Shown piece by piece: positions 14,590 to 47,556 of a stretch of DNA of 47,556 nt. Source of the stretch: Fibrobacter sp. Its GTDB lineage: Bacteria > Fibrobacterota > Fibrobacteria > Fibrobacterales > Fibrobacteraceae. The stretch spans positions 1-47,556 of the forward strand of contig JAILDK010000048.1 in NCBI GenBank assembly GCA_024689485.1. Direction: 5' to 3'. Under the pieces are notes generated by a model. It was not told the DNA's origin, ran no database searches, and saw only the letters and a program-made list of their open reading frames with translations. The position numbers and the translations under genes were made by a program. Position 1 is the first letter of the stretch, and each line of letters begins with the position of its first letter.

Positions 14590-15409
14590 TTTTCAACATC
14601 TCCTGCAAAACCCAGTCCGGTTTCTTCTGCATAATGAAAACTTCTTCCAGGTGCGTAAAGTTCTGGAACGGGTCAAGTTCAAGCTCCGTCACCACGTCCA
14701 AATCACCCTTGTGCATCGAACGGACTACACCGATGCCAATCCCCTTCGGATAAATTCCACCCATGCCCGAAGTCACCAGCGTATCGCCTTCACGGACGCC
14801 CGTATAAGACGGAATCGAAGCGTTCAGGTAGTTTGCCGAACCGCCTTCCAAAAAGCCCACCACACGCGTTCTCTGCACCATCACAGAAACATGCAGCGAA
14901 GGATCCGGCAAAAGTTGCACTTTGGAATGAGTATTCGAAACCGCCGAGATTCGTCCGACAAGCCCATGCGTCGTAAAGACCGGCATATTCATTTCAATGC
15001 CATGTTCCGTACCGCGGTTCACCACGAACGTCGTCAAAAAACGACCCGGGTTCTTCCCGATTACGCGCGCCGTCACAATGGAATAATCCCAGACGTTGTC
15101 AAAATGCACAAGTTCACGCAAACGCTGCATTTCCTCAATGCCTTCGCGCAAATTATCGCGTTCCATTTTCAAGCGGGCGTTTTCACGCTTCAAATTGTCG
15201 TTTTCATAAGACAGCGAGTGAATGCGGTCCACCGAAGAAACGACCACCTGTGCCGGATAGTACACGGAAGAAAGCGCTCCAGCGACAACGGTTTCCTTTC
15301 CATCTTTTTCCAGATGGCGAATGCCGAAGCCGACCAAGAGCAAAATGATAAAGAGGACCAGCCCGTGCCCTTTAGAAAGGACGTTTCCAAGAAAACGGAA
15401 AATCTGCAT
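14573..15409 (-). CDS. mreC: Rod-shape-determining protein MreC
   Basis: MreC is a bitopic periplasmic scaffold that links MreB filaments to PBP2 and RodA. The 278 residues contain one N-terminal membrane helix (about 16-32), a coiled coil (about 65-97, SYENDNLKRENARLKMERDN) and the tandem beta-barrel domain with NRGTEHGIEMNMPVFT and GLVGRIS segments. It ends in a charged tail. It lies 21 bp after mreB and overlaps mreD by 17 bp. Confidence 0.93.
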   Translation of the reverse strand: MQIFRFLGNVLSKGHGLVLFIILLLVGFGIRHLEKDGKETVVAGALSSVYYPAQVVVSSVDRIHSLSYENDNLKRENARLKMERDNLREGIEEMQRLRELVHFDNVWDYSIVTARVIGKNPGRFLTTFVVNRGTEHGIEMNMPVFTTHGLVGRISAVSNTHSKVQLLPDPSLHVSVMVQRTRVVGFLEGGSANYLNASIPSYTGVREGDTLVTSGMGGIYPKGIGIGVVRSMHKGDLDVVTELELDPFQNFTHLEEVFIMQKKPDWVLQEMLKNAEVH

Positions 15410-15430
15410 TTTCTAGCGGGACTGTCGAAA

Positions 15431-16453
15431 TTAGATCGTGGAAGAAATCAAGACCGGGCGGAACTTGTCCAGTTCTTCGAGAATGCGAGCGGCACCCTTG
15501 CACACGCAGAGCAGCGGGTCGTCGATCACGTTCACCGAAAGACCGGTTTCCTTGCGGATACGAGCGTCCAAACCACGGAGCTTGGAACCACCGCCCGACA
15601 TGATAATGCCGCGGTCGAGAATGTCCGCAGAGAGTTCCGGAGGAGTCAGAGCGAGAGCCTGCTTCACCGCGTCGACAATCGCTGTCACCGGTTCATCCAA
15701 AGCTTCGCGAATTTCCTGGCTCGTAATCGTCATCGTACGCGGAAGGCCAGCCATCACATCGCCACCCTTCACGTCCATCGTCAATTCTTCTTCCAGCGGA
15801 TAAGCGGAACCGATAGCCCACTTGATCTGTTCTGCCGTGCTTTCGCCGACGATCAAGTTGTAGGTCTTACGGAGATAGTTCACAATCGCTTCATCCATTT
15901 CGTCACCGCCGACGCGCACCGATGCGTTGCAAACGATGCCGTTCAAAGCGATCACAGCGATATCCGACGTACCACCGCCGATATCGACAATCATATTGCC
16001 TGCAGGACCATCTACCGGGATGCCCATACCGACAGCCGCAGCCATCGGTTCATGCACCAGGTGAACTTCCTTTGCGCCAGCCATGCGAGCCGCATCCGTC
16101 ACAGCGCGTTTTTCCACTTCGGTAATGCCCGAAGGAACGCCGATCACGACGCGCGGCTTCACGAGGAACAGCGGATACTTCTGAACGCGCTTGATGAACG
16201 TCGAAAGCAGAATTTCCACCAACTGGAAGTCCGCAATCACGCCGTCCTTCATCGGGCGGATAGCCACATTCGCACCCGGAGTACGTCCGAGCATCTTTTT
16301 AGCTTCACCACCGATCGCGGTTACACGATCGTTTTTACGGTCCATCGCAACGACCGTAGGTTCATTGATGACAATACCTTGTCCAGCAACGTGAACAAGG
16401 GTATTAGCCGTTCCAAGATCAACGCCGATATCGCAAGAGAAAAGTCCGAACAA
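15431..16453 (-). CDS. mreB: Rod-shape-determining actin homologue MreB
   Basis: MreB forms membrane-associated filaments that orient lateral wall synthesis. The 340-residue product carries the actin-fold motifs DIGVDLGTANTLVHV (phosphate 1), DIGGGTSDIAV (phosphate 2) and a C-terminal GGGSKLRGLD adenosine motif. The start codon is TTG: no in-frame ATG exists upstream, MFGLFS is a typical MreB N-terminus, and AAGGA lies about 10 nt before it. It is the first gene of the mreBCD-mrdA-rodA operon, and the weak start codon may tune its level. Confidence 0.96.
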   Translation of the reverse strand: MFGLFSCDIGVDLGTANTLVHVAGQGIVINEPTVVAMDRKNDRVTAIGGEAKKMLGRTPGANVAIRPMKDGVIADFQLVEILLSTFIKRVQKYPLFLVKPRVVIGVPSGITEVEKRAVTDAARMAGAKEVHLVHEPMAAAVGMGIPVDGPAGNMIVDIGGGTSDIAVIALNGIVCNASVRVGGDEMDEAIVNYLRKTYNLIVGESTAEQIKWAIGSAYPLEEELTMDVKGGDVMAGLPRTMTITSQEIREALDEPVTAIVDAVKQALALTPPELSADILDRGIIMSGGGSKLRGLDARIRKETGLSVNVIDDPLLCVCKGAARILEELDKFRPVLISSTI

Positions 16454-39662: not shown

Positions 39663-42600
39663 TTATCCGCGGTTCTGATTCTTCATGTTGTTAAGTGCAC
39701 GGCGATATTCCATCGGGAACACCTTCACAAAGAGTTCGCGTTCCAAGTCCCAGTTGGCGAGGATTCTCTTCGCCTTCGGGCTGCCCGTGTACTTGGCATG
39801 GTTTTCAATCAGCTGTTTGAGTTCCGCTTCGTCTTCTTCGTTCAGCGGATCCAAGTCGATCATTTCGGTGTTGCAGACGCTGTCGAAACGACCATCTTCA
39901 TCGTAGACGTAAGCGATACCACCGCTCATGCCCGCGCCGAAGTTGATGCCGGTCGGTCCAAGGACCACCACGCGGCCACCAGTCATGTATTCACAACCGT
40001 GATCGCCGACGCCTTCGACAACCGCGAGCGCACCGCTGTTACGGATACCGAAACGTTCGCCAACTCGACCGTTCAAGTAAACTTCACCCGACGTTGCACC
40101 GTACAGAATCACGTTACCACCGATCACGTTATCTTCCGGAGCAAAGGTGCTTTCCTTCGGCGGACGCACAATGATCTTTGCACCCGAAAGGCTCTTGCCG
40201 ATGTAGTCGTTCGCTTCACCTTCCAAATCAATCGTGAGACCGTGAGCGGCGAAAGCGCCGAGGCTCTGGCCCGCAGATCCCTTGACGTGGAGCGTAATCG
40301 TATCGTCCGGAAGGCCCGCGTAGCCGTACTTCTTTGCGATGCGGCTCGAAATGATCGTGCCGAAGGTACGGTTCGTGTTGCGAATCGGGAGGTTCAAAGT
40401 AATCGGCTTTTTCGTTTCGATGGAGTTTTCGACAGACTTGAGAATTTCGTAGTCGAAAGCGCCTTCGAGGCCCGTTTCCTGCTTCATCGTGCAGCGGACT
40501 TCGTCGTTCTTTTCCGATGCGCGGTAAAGAATGCCGGAGTAGTCCAAGCCCTGAGCCTTCCAGAAGTCGATCGCCTTGTTCATTTCCAGAAGATCGCTGC
40601 GGCCGATCATTTCGTCGAAGGTGCGGAAGCCGAGCTGTGCCATGTAATGGCGGACTTCTTCTGCGACGAAAGTCAAATACTGGATAATGTGTTCCGGAGC
40701 GCCCTTGAAACGCTTGCGGAGTTCCGGATCCTGCGTGGCGACGCCAACCGGACAAGTGTTCGAGTGGCAGTGACGCATCATCACGCAGCCGAGGACCACG
40801 AGGATGACCGTTGCAAAGCCAAATTCTTCTGCACCCAGGAGCGCGCCAATCACCACGTCACGACCCGTTTTCATTTGACCGTCGACCTGAAGGCGCACAC
40901 GGCTACGGAGCTTGTTCAGCACGAGCGTCGTCTGAGCTTCAGAAAGGCCAAGTTCCCACGGAGCGCCGACGTGCTTCACGGACGACACCGGAGAAGCGCC
41001 GGTACCGCCATCGTAACCGGAAATCAAAATCATATCGGCACGAGCCTTGGCAACGCCAGCGGCAACCGTACCCACGCCCACTTCCGACACGAGCTTCACA
41101 GAAATGCGAGCCTTGTCGTTTGCATTGCGCAAGTCAAAGATCAACTGCGCAATGTCTTCGATCGAGTAAATATCGTGATGCGGCGGCGGGCTAATGAGGG
41201 TCACACCCGGAGTCGAATGACGCACGCGTGCAATCTGTTCACTGACCTTGTGACCCGGCAGCTGACCACCTTCACCCGGCTTTGCACCCTGAGCGATCTT
41301 GATCTGAAGTTCGCTTGCATTCACCAGGTATTCGTCGGTCACGCCAAAGCGGCCACTGGCCACCTGCTTCGTTGCGCTCGAAAGGGAATCTCCATTCGGC
41401 AGCGGAATGTAACGCGCCGGATCTTCACCACCTTCACCGCTGTTGCTGCGGGCGCCGATGCGGTTCATGGCAATCGCAATCGATTCATGCGCTTCATTCG
41501 AAATAGCACCGTAGCTCATTGCGCCCGTCACAAAGCGCTTCATAATTTCCGAAGCCGGTTCCACTTCGTCGAGCGGAATCGCATCCGTCTTCTTGAACGT
41601 AAAGAGACCGCGGAGAGTGCTCTGATGCTTCTGCTGGTTATTGATGCGTTCTGCGTAAGAATCATAACGCTGCTGATTTCCGGTGCGGACTGCAATCTGC
41701 AAATCCGAAATCGCTTCCGGAGTCCAGAGGTGACGTTCCCCATCCTTGCGCAAGCGATATTCACCGCCAGACGGAAGGATCGGGCTGTGGCTTTCGATTG
41801 CCGCACGCCAACGCATGAGAACTTCCTTCGCAATTTCTTCCATGCCGACACCGCCGACGCGGCTTGCGGCACCTGTAAAGTACTTATCGACGACTTCCTT
41901 CGAAATACCGACGATTTCAAAGACCTGAGCGTTTCGATAGCTGCGGAGCGTCGAAATGCCCATACGGCTCATGATTTTCTTCAAGCCCTTGTTCATGGCG
42001 TCGATGTAATGTTCCACGGCTTCCGTCACACCGATCTGCTTGTCGAGTTCCTGCAAGCGGCTCATGTGAGCGATCGATTCGAAAGCGAGGTACGGGTTGA
42101 TTGCCGTCGCACCGAAACCGAGCAGGCTTGCCACGTGCATCACTTCGCGAGCTTCACCCGTTTCAAGAATCAGACCGCAGCTCGTGCGAACGCCCACGCG
42201 TGCCAAGTGCTGGTTCACCGCAGACACGGCGAGAATCGCCGGAATCGGAGCGAATTCATCCGGAAGGTCCTTATCGCTCAAGATAATGACCTTGTTTCCA
42301 CGGCGAACTTCTTCTTCTGCCTTCTTGCAAAGATCCGTCAAAGCCTGTTCCAAAAGCTTTCCAGCGGAAAGCGAATCGGAAAGAACCGGGAAGCCCATCT
42401 GCACCGTCGCGCACTTGAAATCTTCCTGGGAAAGGGAACGGAGACGTCCCAAGTCTTCATTCGAAAGCACCGGGTAACGGAACTTGAGCAGGCGCGCCTG
42501 GGAAGGTTCTTCGGCGAGAATGTTGTCATGAATGCCGAGGAACGTCATGAGGCTCATCACGAGCTCTTCACGAATCGGATCGATCGGCGGGTTCGTCACC

Positions 42601-44147
42601 TGGGCAAAGAGCTGCTTAAAGTACCAGTAAAGCAGCTGCGGCTTTTCAGAGAGAACGGCGAGCGGCTGGTCAGAGCCCATCGAACCGATCGGTTCCACGC
42701 CATTCGAAGCCATCGAATTCAAAATGAAGTCCGTATCTTCACGGGTGTAACCGAAGAGCTTCTGGCGCTTCATCAAAGTATCTTCATTCACAGCGACTTC
42801 GCCGACCGCGTTGAAGAAGCCGTGGATGTCGATATGGTTTTCCTTGACCCAGCGGCGATACGGTTCCTTGCGGGCAAAGCGAGTCTTGACCGCCTTATCC
42901 TTGTAGAAACGACCCGTTCTGAGGTTGATGAGGAGCATCTGACCCGGACGGAGAGAGCCCTTTTCGGCCACGTCTTCCGGGGCAATGTCCAAAACGCCCG
43001 CTTCCGAAGCGAACACCATGAAGTTGTTCTTCAAAATCGTGTAACGTGCCGGGCGGAGACCGTTTCTGTCGAGAGTCGCACCGACCCATTCGCCATCGGT
43101 AAAGGCGACGGCTGCCGGGCCATCCCACGGTTCCATGATGCCAGCGTGATATTCGAAGAAGCCGCGCACATCCGGGCCCATCGCATGCTTTTTACCCCAA
43201 GCCTGCGGCATGAGCATCATCATCGAATGACCGACTTCACGACCGCCGAGAGTCAAAAGTTCAAGAACGTTGTCCAAGTTGCCCGAGTCGCTCGAACCCT
43301 TTTCGAGAATCGGCATGAGCTTTTTGATATCGCTACCGAAGAGCGGCGATTCCAAATTCTTTTCACGCGCCTTCATCCAGTTGCGGTTACCGCGGATCGT
43401 GTTGATTTCGCCGTTGTGCGCCATGTAGCGGAACGGCTGGGAAAGCGGCCAGCTCGGGAAGGTGTTCGTGGAATAGCGCTGGTGCACAACGGCAACGGCA
43501 CTTTCAAAGTTTTCGTCGTTCAAGTCCGGGTAGAAAACCGGAACCTGCGGGCCAGTCATCATGCCCTTGTAAACGATGGTGCGGGCAGAAAGGCTTGCCA
43601 CGTAGAAACCGTCGGCGCCATCGGCTTCGAGGCCCGATTCATGTTCGGCGCGCTTGCGGATCACGAGGAGAGCGCGTTCCAAAGATTCACCTGTCAGATC
43701 CTTTTTGGACTGCAAGAAGATCTGGGCGATGAACGGCATTTCTGCGCGGGCAGATTCACCGATCGAAGAGGCTACCACCGGAACGTCGCGACTTTCGAGA
43801 ACTTCGAAATCCTCTTCCTTCGCAATCTTTTCGATGAGAGCCATCACATCGCTGCGCTTCTTTTCGTTCTGCGGAAGGAAGAGCATACCGACACCGTAAT
43901 GGCCAAGTTCCGGAAGCTTCATCTTCAGAGATTTCTTAAAGAAGTTGTCCGGGATCTGGACGAGCAAACCGGCACCGTCACCGGTATTGACGTCTGCACC
44001 CGTAGCACCTCTGTGGAGGAGGTTGCAGAGAACCTTCACGCCTTTTTCGACGATTCCGTGTTCTCGATTGCCATTCATGTTCAGGACAAAACCGACACCG
44101 CACGCGTCGTGTTCGTTCTGCGGGTTGTATAGACCTTGAGCCTTCAT
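39663..44147 (-). CDS. gltB: Glutamate synthase large subunit
   Basis: This 1494-residue enzyme makes two glutamates from glutamine and 2-oxoglutarate. It has an N-terminal glutamine amidotransferase domain with the catalytic cysteine C16 (EHDACGVGF; the 15-residue leader is presumably removed), a central domain, and an FMN/iron-sulfur synthase domain with SGEGGEDPARY and a cysteine set in CVMMRHCHSNTCPVGVATQ. The C-terminal beta-helix carries GGNVILYGATSGE. The length matches the family. AAGGAGACAT before the ATG is a good ribosome binding site. It leads the gltB-gltD-regulator operon. Confidence 0.97.
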   Translation of the reverse strand: MKAQGLYNPQNEHDACGVGFVLNMNGNREHGIVEKGVKVLCNLLHRGATGADVNTGDGAGLLVQIPDNFFKKSLKMKLPELGHYGVGMLFLPQNEKKRSDVMALIEKIAKEEDFEVLESRDVPVVASSIGESARAEMPFIAQIFLQSKKDLTGESLERALLVIRKRAEHESGLEADGADGFYVASLSARTIVYKGMMTGPQVPVFYPDLNDENFESAVAVVHQRYSTNTFPSWPLSQPFRYMAHNGEINTIRGNRNWMKAREKNLESPLFGSDIKKLMPILEKGSSDSGNLDNVLELLTLGGREVGHSMMMLMPQAWGKKHAMGPDVRGFFEYHAGIMEPWDGPAAVAFTDGEWVGATLDRNGLRPARYTILKNNFMVFASEAGVLDIAPEDVAEKGSLRPGQMLLINLRTGRFYKDKAVKTRFARKEPYRRWVKENHIDIHGFFNAVGEVAVNEDTLMKRQKLFGYTREDTDFILNSMASNGVEPIGSMGSDQPLAVLSEKPQLLYWYFKQLFAQVTNPPIDPIREELVMSLMTFLGIHDNILAEEPSQARLLKFRYPVLSNEDLGRLRSLSQEDFKCATVQMGFPVLSDSLSAGKLLEQALTDLCKKAEEEVRRGNKVIILSDKDLPDEFAPIPAILAVSAVNQHLARVGVRTSCGLILETGEAREVMHVASLLGFGATAINPYLAFESIAHMSRLQELDKQIGVTEAVEHYIDAMNKGLKKIMSRMGISTLRSYRNAQVFEIVGISKEVVDKYFTGAASRVGGVGMEEIAKEVLMRWRAAIESHSPILPSGGEYRLRKDGERHLWTPEAISDLQIAVRTGNQQRYDSYAERINNQQKHQSTLRGLFTFKKTDAIPLDEVEPASEIMKRFVTGAMSYGAISNEAHESIAIAMNRIGARSNSGEGGEDPARYIPLPNGDSLSSATKQVASGRFGVTDEYLVNASELQIKIAQGAKPGEGGQLPGHKVSEQIARVRHSTPGVTLISPPPHHDIYSIEDIAQLIFDLRNANDKARISVKLVSEVGVGTVAAGVAKARADMILISGYDGGTGASPVSSVKHVGAPWELGLSEAQTTLVLNKLRSRVRLQVDGQMKTGRDVVIGALLGAEEFGFATVILVVLGCVMMRHCHSNTCPVGVATQDPELRKRFKGAPEHIIQYLTFVAEEVRHYMAQLGFRTFDEMIGRSDLLEMNKAIDFWKAQGLDYSGILYRASEKNDEVRCTMKQETGLEGAFDYEILKSVENSIETKKPITLNLPIRNTNRTFGTIISSRIAKKYGYAGLPDDTITLHVKGSAGQSLGAFAAHGLTIDLEGEANDYIGKSLSGAKIIVRPPKESTFAPEDNVIGGNVILYGATSGEVYLNGRVGERFGIRNSGALAVVEGVGDHGCEYMTGGRVVVLGPTGINFGAGMSGGIAYVYDEDGRFDSVCNTEMIDLDPLNEEDEAELKQLIENHAKYTGSPKAKRILANWDLERELFVKVFPMEYRRALNNMKNQNRG

Positions 44148-44452: not shown

Positions 44453-44749
44453 TTATTCGAGAGTCAGGATATCATTGAAGCCCGTGACTTCAAAGATTTC
44501 CTTCACTTCCGGCTTCGCATTGCGAATGACCATGCGGCCCTGCTTGTTCATCACCTTTTGGGCAGAAAGCAGAATGCGGAGACCTGCAGAAGAGATGTAT
44601 TCCAAATTGACGAAATCAAAAATGAGTTCCGTGACGCCGTCGAGCTTGCCCTGGATTTCCCCATCGAGCTGCGGGGCGGTCAGCGTATCCAAGCGGCCTT
44701 CCACAGCAAAAGTCATCGTCTGTCCGGCAGTAGTCTTTTCGATCTTCAT
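44453..44749 (-). CDS. STAS-domain anti-sigma-factor antagonist
   Basis: This 98-residue protein is a single STAS domain of the SpoIIAA/RsbV type. The switch segment EYISSAGLRILLSAQ contains S54, which aligns with the serine phosphorylated by the partner kinase. The unphosphorylated form would bind an RsbW-like kinase and release its target. The ribosome binding site GAGGATG is good. It is the last gene of the partner-switching operon, with the phosphatase/kinase and the MATE-kinase-like protein upstream. No sigma factor gene is visible. Confidence 0.9.
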   Translation of the reverse strand: MKIEKTTAGQTMTFAVEGRLDTLTAPQLDGEIQGKLDGVTELIFDFVNLEYISSAGLRILLSAQKVMNKQGRMVIRNAKPEVKEIFEVTGFNDILTLE

Positions 44750-44817
44750 AATTCATCCTCACTGGCAATCGTTTTGAAAATTCTTTCTTTACCCAATTTA
44801 ATCACATTTTGAGACAT
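44746..44817 (-). CDS. Possible 23-codon small ORF between the MATE and STAS genes
   Basis: A short frame (MSQNVIKLGKER at its start, ending EDEL) begins 11 bp after the MATE stop and ends in TGA overlapping the STAS ATG (ATGA). It therefore exactly fills the gap. It is basic then acidic and has no known motif. There is no clear ribosome binding site, so it may be chance. If translated, it could couple STAS synthesis to upstream translation. Confidence 0.25.
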   Translation of the reverse strand: MSQNVIKLGKERIFKTIASEDEL

Positions 44818-44828
44818 TGCAAAGTCTT

Positions 44829-46559
44829 TTACGCCCAAGACTCCCTGTCAAAGCGGAAAACATGCCGATTATAGCTCATGGTGAGCATATAAAGCTTTTC
44901 CCGCTGATACGCCATCAGGGCGGTTACAAAGTAGGCGCGCAAGTCCGAGACCACCATTTCGAGGTCCGTCATGTTCTGCAACACGCCGTTGTCCTTCATG
45001 ACGCAAATAACCTTTCCCTGGAAAATGCGCACGCTGAACTCGGTATAGACCTTGCGGTTCCGGTTCACATCGTAAATGTGCATGCCGAGTTCTTCGACCA
45101 GGAGCATCACCTTGTTGCAAATCGAATTTTCCACATTTTTTTTGCGCAGATAATCGCCCATGTGATCGCGCAAAGCGACAATGTTCTGCGGCGTGACTTC
45201 GCAGCTTTCCGCTTTCCACATGTCCTTTCCACGGTGGAGCAAGAGCGGAAAATACTTTTTGCCGTAAACCGCAAGGAACGCCACCACGCAAATCGCAAAC
45301 GAAATAAACGGCGCCACCGCAAGCCCCACCCAGATACCGTAAGAACCGTAAAGGCTCCCCAAAATCACGCAGCAAAGGATCGGCATCAGCAGGTCGCGCA
45401 TCAACACAATGAACATCGAAAACAGCGGATTGTGATGCTGGTAAAACGGCGCATAGACCCTCTGGAAAGCTTTGACGAGGCACCCGATACTCGCCACGCG
45501 CACCGCCCAAATCGCCTCGGGCAAAATGCTTGTCGAATGGATGTGAAAAAGATCCGCGAGGAACGGCGCCCACACAATCAAGAACGCGGTCATCAAAACG
45601 CCTTCCACCAAAATCGATTCGTTCACATACTTCATCACACGGCGAACGCCGATCAGGTTGCGTTCCCCGCGGTACACCGAAACCAAAGGTTCTGCCGCAA
45701 GCCAAATACCGCCAAAAACAGAACCGAGTTCCACCACTTCAAAAATCATGGCGAGCACCGGCATCGAATCCGGATCGCAGGAACGCAAAAAGAAGCGCGT
45801 CAAAAGGAAGGTGAAAATGGAAAAGCACAGGTAGGCACTGCTCTTTGCCACGCTAAAGCGGAACACCGATGCAATGTCCTTTACGTTCACATGCAGCTTA
45901 AAATGCAGCGAATTTGACTTTTTGAAGAAGTGCAACAGGAGCACGCCCAAAAAGAGAATGCTCGCCACAAACAGCGCAAGGCCAAGCCCCGCAATGCCCA
46001 TCGAGTCTACAAAATACAGGGACAAAGCCACTTCCGCAGCAATCAAAATGCCGTAGGACCAAAAAGTCAAAACCTCATCGCCGTCGGCATAGACGAGTTC
46101 CGAAAGAAAATACCCTACCGGCAGCACAAGTACAACACCGAGGAACCACTTGTAAAACGGAAGAACTTCCATCACCAGCTCTGGCGGCACACCAAGAAAT
46201 TCAAGAATCGCATCCCGCGCCAGGGCAAAAAATCCAAACAGCACCACGCCCGAAAAAAGGGCGAGCAGAACGCCCTGACCAAAATGTTTTGCCGCTTCTT
46301 CGGGCTTTAACTCCCCGACCGCCGTCGTATAGCAAATGGTCGTACCGCAAGCGATGCAGGCACCGACGAACAAGACAAAGCTAAAGAGAGGCGTCACCAT
46401 CGTCACCGCGGCAAGAGCCGTTTCGCCGATCAGGTTACTCGCAATAATTTTGCAAATGAGCATCACCAGGATTTCGGCAACCATCGAGAACGATGACACA
46501 AAGAGCATCGAAAGGTATCGACGGCCCGAAAAGCTGTGAAGGATTCCTCTTTTAAGCAT
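44829..46559 (-). CDS. MATE-family transporter fused to a degenerate RsbW-like domain
   Basis: This 576-residue protein has about twelve membrane helices up to residue 435 with MATE-like features (LAAVTMVTPLFSFVLFVGAC at 49-68 and a pseudo-repeat after 230). A soluble C-terminal domain of about 125 residues (450-576) follows and resembles the RsbW/SpoIIAB GHKL fold: LLVEELGMHIYDVN (486-499) looks like the N box and MKDNGV (521-526) like the G1 box. The usual asparagine after the N-box glutamate is histidine (H494), and no Gly-rich G2 loop follows, so ATP binding may be lost. It overlaps the phosphatase gene by 8 bp. A membrane-bound docking site for the STAS protein is the likely role; transport substrate unknown. 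Confidence 0.82.
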   Translation of the reverse strand: MLKRGILHSFSGRRYLSMLFVSSFSMVAEILVMLICKIIASNLIGETALAAVTMVTPLFSFVLFVGACIACGTTICYTTAVGELKPEEAAKHFGQGVLLALFSGVVLFGFFALARDAILEFLGVPPELVMEVLPFYKWFLGVVLVLPVGYFLSELVYADGDEVLTFWSYGILIAAEVALSLYFVDSMGIAGLGLALFVASILFLGVLLLHFFKKSNSLHFKLHVNVKDIASVFRFSVAKSSAYLCFSIFTFLLTRFFLRSCDPDSMPVLAMIFEVVELGSVFGGIWLAAEPLVSVYRGERNLIGVRRVMKYVNESILVEGVLMTAFLIVWAPFLADLFHIHSTSILPEAIWAVRVASIGCLVKAFQRVYAPFYQHHNPLFSMFIVLMRDLLMPILCCVILGSLYGSYGIWVGLAVAPFISFAICVVAFLAVYGKKYFPLLLHRGKDMWKAESCEVTPQNIVALRDHMGDYLRKKNVENSICNKVMLLVEELGMHIYDVNRNRKVYTEFSVRIFQGKVICVMKDNGVLQNMTDLEMVVSDLRAYFVTALMAYQREKLYMLTMSYNRHVFRFDRESWA

Positions 46560-47556
46560 TCTTTTCGATCGTCAAAATATTCTTGTCGCCTTCGCGCGTG
46601 TATTCCATTTTGTCCATGGTCTTTTTGACGAGGAAAATGCCGAGTCCGCCGATTTCACGTTCTTCTGCAGAAAGCGTCACGTCCGGATCTTCCTTTTGCA
46701 AAGGATTGTACGGAACTCCGGCATCGATAAAGATCAGCTTGGCGCGGAACGGATTGTTCGCGGATTCGATTTGCAATGTGAGCTTGGGCGACTTCGAATA
46801 TTGCACGATGTTGCCCGCAATTTCATCGACAGCGACGCTGATCTGCGTTTGCGTCTTCATGGGGCAGCCCGCCTCCTCAAGCGTCTGCTCTACGAACGCA
46901 TAAAGCTCCGAGAGCTTTTCTCTGGTCGCATCCAATGTGATTTCTTTCAACATACCACCCTCCGCCGACTTTCCATGGAACAGGAGAGACAGCATTGTAA
47001 TATCATCAAATTGCGGAGCATTCCGTACGAATTCATCCACCGATAACTTAACATTTTGGCACAGCATTCCGTTCCGCTTGATCGCGTTCAAGAGCCTTTC
47101 ATTGCCAAAAAGGGACTCATACGGATCCGTCGCCTCGGTAACGCCATCCGTGTACAGGAAAAGGGAATCTTCCTTGGCGAGTTCCAAGGACTGCAAATTG
47201 AAGCGAACGCCCGACATACCGCCCAAAACAAAGTTCGCCTTGCTTTTCGCAAATTCCACGCTGCCATCTGCATGGCGAATCACCGGCGGATTATGGCCCG
47301 CCGAAACAAAGTCCACATGCCCCGTCTTCAAATTCAGAACGCCCATCCAAACGGTCACAAACATGTTCTGATCGTTCTTTGCTGCCAAACGGTCGTTCGT
47401 CTGTTCAAAGGCTTCGTTCAGCGGAATACCTGTCATCACCACCGTTTTGAGCAACGTGCGAACGCCCATCAAGTACATCGCCGCCGGGATTCCCTTGCCC
47501 GAAACGTCTGCAATCATAAAGGCAAAATGATCTTCATCCATCTGGTAAAAATCGTA
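46552..47556 (-). CDS. SpoIIE/RsbU-type phosphatase fused to an RsbW-like kinase (5' end outside window)
   Basis: The frame is open to the window edge, so the N-terminus is missing; 334 residues are seen. Counting from the Met at 47541, a PP2C/SpoIIE phosphatase domain (1-190) has DVSGKG (12-17), SAGHNPP, YTDGVTEA (130-137) and the metal-binding DD (179-180). An RsbW-like GHKL kinase domain (198-329) has VDEIAGN (238-244, N box), IDAGVPYNP (G1) and GGLGIFLV (298-305, G2), all intact. The protein holds both the kinase and the phosphatase for a STAS partner. The gene overlaps the MATE gene by 8 bp. A sensor domain may precede the visible part. Confidence 0.9.
   Translation of the reverse strand, partial: YDFYQMDEDHFAFMIADVSGKGIPAAMYLMGVRTLLKTVVMTGIPLNEAFEQTNDRLAAKNDQNMFVTVWMGVLNLKTGHVDFVSAGHNPPVIRHADGSVEFAKSKANFVLGGMSGVRFNLQSLELAKEDSLFLYTDGVTEATDPYESLFGNERLLNAIKRNGMLCQNVKLSVDEFVRNAPQFDDITMLSLLFHGKSAEGGMLKEITLDATREKLSELYAFVEQTLEEAGCPMKTQTQISVAVDEIAGNIVQYSKSPKLTLQIESANNPFRAKLIFIDAGVPYNPLQKEDPDVTLSAEEREIGGLGIFLVKKTMDKMEYTREGDKNILTIEKNA

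Follow-up and report, generated by a model that had tools for sequence, protein, structure and literature searches.

RsbU/RsbV/RsbW and SpoIIE/SpoIIAA/SpoIIAB are the canonical partner switches, and the locus described here has their three enzyme and adaptor families in common with them, with intact motifs. It differs from them in that its operons are devoid of a sigma factor gene and in that a second, degenerate copy of the RsbW fold forms the tail of a transporter. STAS outputs that do not involve a sigma factor are known as well, SypE/SypA among them (PMC8256260, PMC12826045). In SypE/SypA the phosphorylation state of the STAS protein is set by a kinase and a phosphatase and the output is not a sigma factor, as is proposed here; however, the target of SypA is not known, whereas the target linked to the present switch is a transporter. 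The nearest precedent for a STAS-controlled transporter is MlaB-MlaF, where a STAS protein controls the ATPase of an ABC transporter (PMC7367683). MlaB resembles the STAS protein of this locus in standing alone and in having a conserved Ser/Thr, and it regulates its transporter post-translationally, as is proposed here. However, MlaB binds the ABC ATPase directly and has no known kinase or phosphatase, whereas here a full phosphorylation switch comes together with an RsbW-fold tail on a MATE protein. Rv1364c of M. tuberculosis (an RsbU-RsbW fusion, PDB 3ke6) likewise has the phosphatase fused to an RsbW kinase, but here the STAS protein is separate and the module includes a transporter. In the SLC26/SulP family a transporter is also coupled to the world of STAS and anti-sigma domains, but there STAS is fused to the transporter while here it is the RsbW side. 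No description of RsbW-tailed MATEs was found in the open-access PMC literature, subscription papers and preprints being outside the scope of the search.

The window, that is the whole stretch of 47,556 nucleotides that was analysed, is an entire contig of a Fibrobacter genome (G000:C83). Three tightly spaced genes on its minus strand code for a SpoIIE-HATPase protein, a MATE transporter and a STAS protein, and ORF positions and Pfam matches confirmed them as an earlier note on this DNA had placed them (Table 1). The overlap between the first two genes suggests translational coupling, and 79 bp separate the MATE and STAS genes. Next on this strand, downstream of STAS, lies gltB, coding for the large chain of glutamate synthase (39663-44147). 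The STAS-gltB order, with a gap of about 300 bp, is common to the window genome and the related genome G002, while the related locus L140 does not have gltB as a neighbour.

Table 1. Features of the partner-switch locus, in positions of the window
Feature	Position	Strand	Details
SpoIIE-type phosphatase fused to RsbW-type kinase	46552..47556	-	334 aa seen, without start; 5' end off the contig
SpoIIE (PPM) phosphatase domain	46984..47538	-	PF07228, E 7.4e-46; motifs ADVSGKG, TDGVTEA, DDITML
RsbW/SpoIIAB-type GHKL kinase domain, intact	46564..46929	-	PF13581 (HATPase_c_2), E 5.6e-18, over cut-off; DEIAGN, DAG, GGLGI
8-bp overlap of phosphatase-kinase stop and MATE start	46552..46559	-	
MATE transporter with RsbW-fold C-terminal tail	44829..46559	-	576 aa; MatE, E 1e-13
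MATE membrane domain (about residues 1-432), PfMATE/DinF-like fold	45264..46559	-	Foldseek, phmmer alignment
RsbW-fold tail (residues 434-576)	44832..45260	-	AlphaFold2, Foldseek, hhalign
STAS protein (RsbV/SpoIIAA-type)	44453..44749	-	98 aa; PF01740, E 9.1e-16; TIGR00377 over cut-off
Ser54 codon of STAS, predicted phosphorylation site	44588..44590	-	invariant motif and PDB alignments

The enzymes of a canonical switch are present. The phosphatase is of the SpoIIE/RsbU type by its Pfam match. The fused kinase retains both the N-box and the G2 box in the family alignment (A8), as expected of an RsbW-type kinase, and the profile made from this alignment matches SpoIIAB with an E-value of 7.1e-7. 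Full-length homologues of the fusion in two related loci (L140 and L144) have 783 and 777 aa and carry dCache and HAMP domains at their N-terminus. The window phosphatase is probably a dCache-HAMP receptor as well, a point that the earlier note had missed. In the STAS protein, residues S53-S54-A55-G56 are invariant among 11 aligned STAS proteins (A9), and Ser54, within YISSAGLR, falls in alignments with PDB sequences in the column of the serine that is phosphorylated in SpoIIAA/RsbV. The STAS protein is thus predicted to have a phosphorylatable serine. The fusion of a SpoIIE phosphatase to an intact RsbW kinase and the presence of such a serine had both been claimed before and were both borne out.

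The tail of the MATE protein presents a different picture. It has no significant Pfam match, no family that accounts for it came up when the tail or the proteins were searched against NCBIfam, PHROGs and PADLOC, and a sequence-profile search of the PDB with the tail returned only a designed protein (E 0.45). However, an AlphaFold2 model of the tail alone from 33 sequences (pLDDT 78, pTM 0.74) has the topology b-a-a-b-b-a-b. The top PDB matches of this model in Foldseek are UsfX, SpoIIAB and RsbW chains from structures in which they are bound to STAS or sigma partners, with E 8e-5 and TM 0.68/0.74 for 8ih8_C. Comparison of the tail with RsbW-type kinase profiles in hhalign gave P-values of 6.4e-8 and 5.4e-7, against 0.083 for an unrelated STAS alignment used as a negative control. 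The predicted fold is that of an RsbW-type GHKL domain. The tail retains the catalytic-type Glu490 and the DxG motif Asp523-x-Gly525 (alignment A6). The G2 box (GxG) is absent, and the column of the N-box Asn, which with the G2 glycines marks an RsbW/SpoIIAB kinase, is His in the window protein and variable across the family. On these grounds the tail was rejected as an ordinary kinase; it looks like a pseudo-kinase serving as a docking module. Thus, the earlier description of the tail as RsbW-like holds for its predicted fold and in profile comparison but not for a Pfam match or for intact kinase motifs; the degeneracy, and hence the need for a separate true kinase, had been overlooked. Residues N499, E507, D523, G525, N564 and R565 are invariant and E490 is nearly always present. 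Between the window genome and G002 the tail shows a dN of 0.30 with a dS of about 2, which is saturated, and by this comparison it is under purifying selection. Identity between the two genomes is 63% for the tail as against 67% for the membrane domain, so that conservation of the two is about equal.

The full-length MATE protein was modelled with a pLDDT of 88 and a pTM of 0.87 (AlphaFold2). In Foldseek its membrane domain matches 4mlb_A (E 5.5e-13, TMt 0.81) and is PfMATE-like, so that both the MatE domain and the fold place the protein among the MATE (MOP) transporters. In the window protein C36 and S180 take the positions of D41 and D184, the N-lobe acids of PfMATE (phmmer alignment); the TM1 Asp is retained in many relatives. 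Not all MATEs have these acids, so that their replacement limits what can be said on coupling and does not touch on membership in the family; the coupling to cations may differ.

A scan of genome contigs gave 46 loci with tailed MATEs, mostly from rumen and gut Fibrobacter, Lachnospiraceae, Selenomonadaceae, Treponema and other Clostridia. A complete operon in L140 (G085) has two GGDEF genes followed by dCache-HAMP-SpoIIE-RsbW, STAS and the tailed MATE. In L138 (G088) the order is RelA/SpoT-like, HD-APH, RsbW, STAS and tailed MATE, and in L190 of Lachnospiraceae it is tailed MATE, STAS and HAMP-SpoIIE-RsbW. L144 (G096) has dCache-HAMP-SpoIIE-RsbW and the tailed MATE. RsbW-type proteins form dimers, and in L144 RsbW stands beside the MATE gene without STAS. 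It could be that the tail, which still has the fold and has lost the catalytic Asn, pairs as a pseudo-kinase with the RsbW kinase domain and not with STAS, and that STAS phosphorylation decides whether the kinase is held at the transporter or released from it. We consider this pairing unlikely, as loci of the L040, L052, L193, L199 and L208 types have STAS and SpoIIE without a nearby RsbW, which argues for STAS as the partner of the tail.

Further tailed MATEs are accompanied by SpoIIE, STAS and a nonribosomal peptide synthetase (NRPS) of A-PCP-C type, RsbW being absent, or just by the NRPS. This conserved protein of about 940-1000 aa adjoins the tailed MATEs of L032, L040, L052, L063, L141-L143 and others. 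Such pairs occur in Fibrobacter, Treponema and Lachnospiraceae and had been missed by the earlier note.

No sigma factor gene is present in the complete operons of L140, L144 and L138. A SigB/F/G-type sigma factor over the curated cut-off was found in 0/6 genomes (G000, G002, G085, G096, G088 and G029), and 1/14 control genomes has a member over it. At this cut-off the six genomes thus have no cognate SigB/F/G-type sigma factor as a canonical partner switch would, and the complete operons of the relatives have none either. The only sigma match near a tailed MATE is of RpoD type and lies at a distance of about 4 kb, in L137, where no switch genes are present; this comes from a scan that used one RpoD-type profile and that ECF sigma factors may escape. 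A sigma gene elsewhere in the operon had been named earlier as what would overturn a sigma-free reading; the complete operons of relatives have none, while the window's own contig ends inside the phosphatase gene. This upstream end, together with other sigma-70 family members that exist in the window genome below the SigBFG cut-off, would allow the MATE gene to be a co-transcribed passenger. That is the least likely of the alternatives that we weighed: the genomes and operons surveyed speak against it, and it leaves unexplained why an RsbW-fold tail is found on the linked MATEs and not on the untailed ones.

The neighbour survey proposed in the earlier note was run after dereplication of the tailed MATEs at 60% identity into 31 groups, with 40 untailed-MATE loci of the same families for comparison. 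A gene for SpoIIE, STAS or RsbW lies within 5 kb of the MATE gene in 15/31 tailed groups as against 1/40 untailed loci (p 4e-6; 9e-5 and 3e-5 with dereplication at 80% and 95% identity). The single linked untailed locus has SpoIIE; STAS, RsbW and NRPS are found in 0/40. An NRPS gene lies beside the tailed MATE in 9/31 groups. In about half of the 31 tailed groups no gene for SpoIIE, STAS or RsbW is close by; the tail may thus act in trans or on partners of another kind. Genomes in which the tailed MATE stands alone (G006, G016 and G035, and G029 with one lone copy) have SpoIIE-RsbW with an adjacent STAS of 98-126 aa elsewhere. At the level of genomes, RsbW is present in 38/39 Fibrobacteraceae with a tailed MATE as against 36/72 without one, with a p of 5e-8 that is uncorrected for shared ancestry; within one genus the co-occurrence is weaker, and there the most conservative count gives p 0.01.

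DxG is the adenine-binding motif in GHKL proteins. The tail's invariant residues could serve in nucleotide or metabolite sensing, which counts against a switch. The tail could then be an allosteric sensor of a nucleotide or metabolite, with the switch genes as neighbours only through a common signal-responsive metabolic cluster. The invariance of DxG and several other polar residues, the groups without nearby switch genes and the adjacency of NRPS genes are in keeping with such a sensor. We nevertheless regard it as improbable, since the missing Mg-binding Asn and G2 box speak against ordinary ATP binding and since linkage to SpoIIE and STAS is found in two phyla.

Our data make it fairly probable that the locus encodes a partner switch that acts on a transporter where a canonical one acts on a sigma factor, and that it thus controls transport directly and not gene expression. 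The earlier note had suggested such a sigma-free switch, and the tail fold, the sigma-less operons, the linkage and the co-occurrence support it, while docking of STAS on the tail, the sign of its effect and the cargo are what we infer. In the proposed mechanism an extracellular ligand would bind the dCache domain of the dCache-HAMP-SpoIIE-RsbW receptor, a domain seen in the relatives and lying off the contig here. Judged by their intact motifs, the phosphatase would then remove the phosphate from Ser54 of STAS and the fused RsbW would restore it. Dephosphorylated STAS would dock on the MATE tail as RsbV does on RsbW and alter transport, most likely by switching it on. Having neither the N-box Asn nor the G2 box, the tail is probably unable to phosphorylate STAS, so that a separate true kinase would be needed as the reset; this need agrees with the finding that almost all genomes with a tailed MATE have RsbW. 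A small metabolite is the probable cargo, the partner gene in many relatives being the NRPS.

Related domain arrangements were observed in the surveyed loci. ABC ATPases of amino-acid type with a C-terminal tail lie near tailed MATEs (L079:5725-6792, L070:4909-5994 and L044:8352-9425), and more copies exist in Treponema and Butyrivibrio genomes. The ATPase tail matches RsbW with an hhalign P of 6e-7 and the MATE tail with 2.5e-7. STAS is fused to APH-like kinase domains at L079:12955-14181 and 14702-15874, within a partner-switch cluster. It is fused at L207:2312-4219 to an AMP-binding (acyl-CoA synthetase-like) enzyme, where the phosphoserine position reads SLAG. A STAS-HATPase fusion of about 273 aa (L098:1078-1896, G000:C36) is present in 6/6 genomes of the genus that were examined. 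MATEs of 749-751 aa in L205/L206 were considered as a STAS-MATE Rosetta-stone fusion and rejected, as the extra N-terminus is not STAS; in L205 it is ECF-riboflavin-transporter-like.

It is conceivable, and we put it forward tentatively, that an unannotated RsbW-fold docking domain plugs SpoIIE/RsbW/STAS switches into transporters of gut anaerobes, both MATE exporters and, through the similar tail, ABC ATPases of amino-acid type, as a general sigma-free route from an extracellular ligand to transport, often of NRPS products. If the proposed switch is true, partner switching, which is known mainly for freeing sigma factors, would also gate membrane transport directly and quickly, and would do so in rumen and gut bacteria that belong to at least two phyla. 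A tail without a Pfam family would gain a function, and a mechanism would be provided for the signal-controlled export of small molecules, including the products of uncharacterised NRPS clusters.
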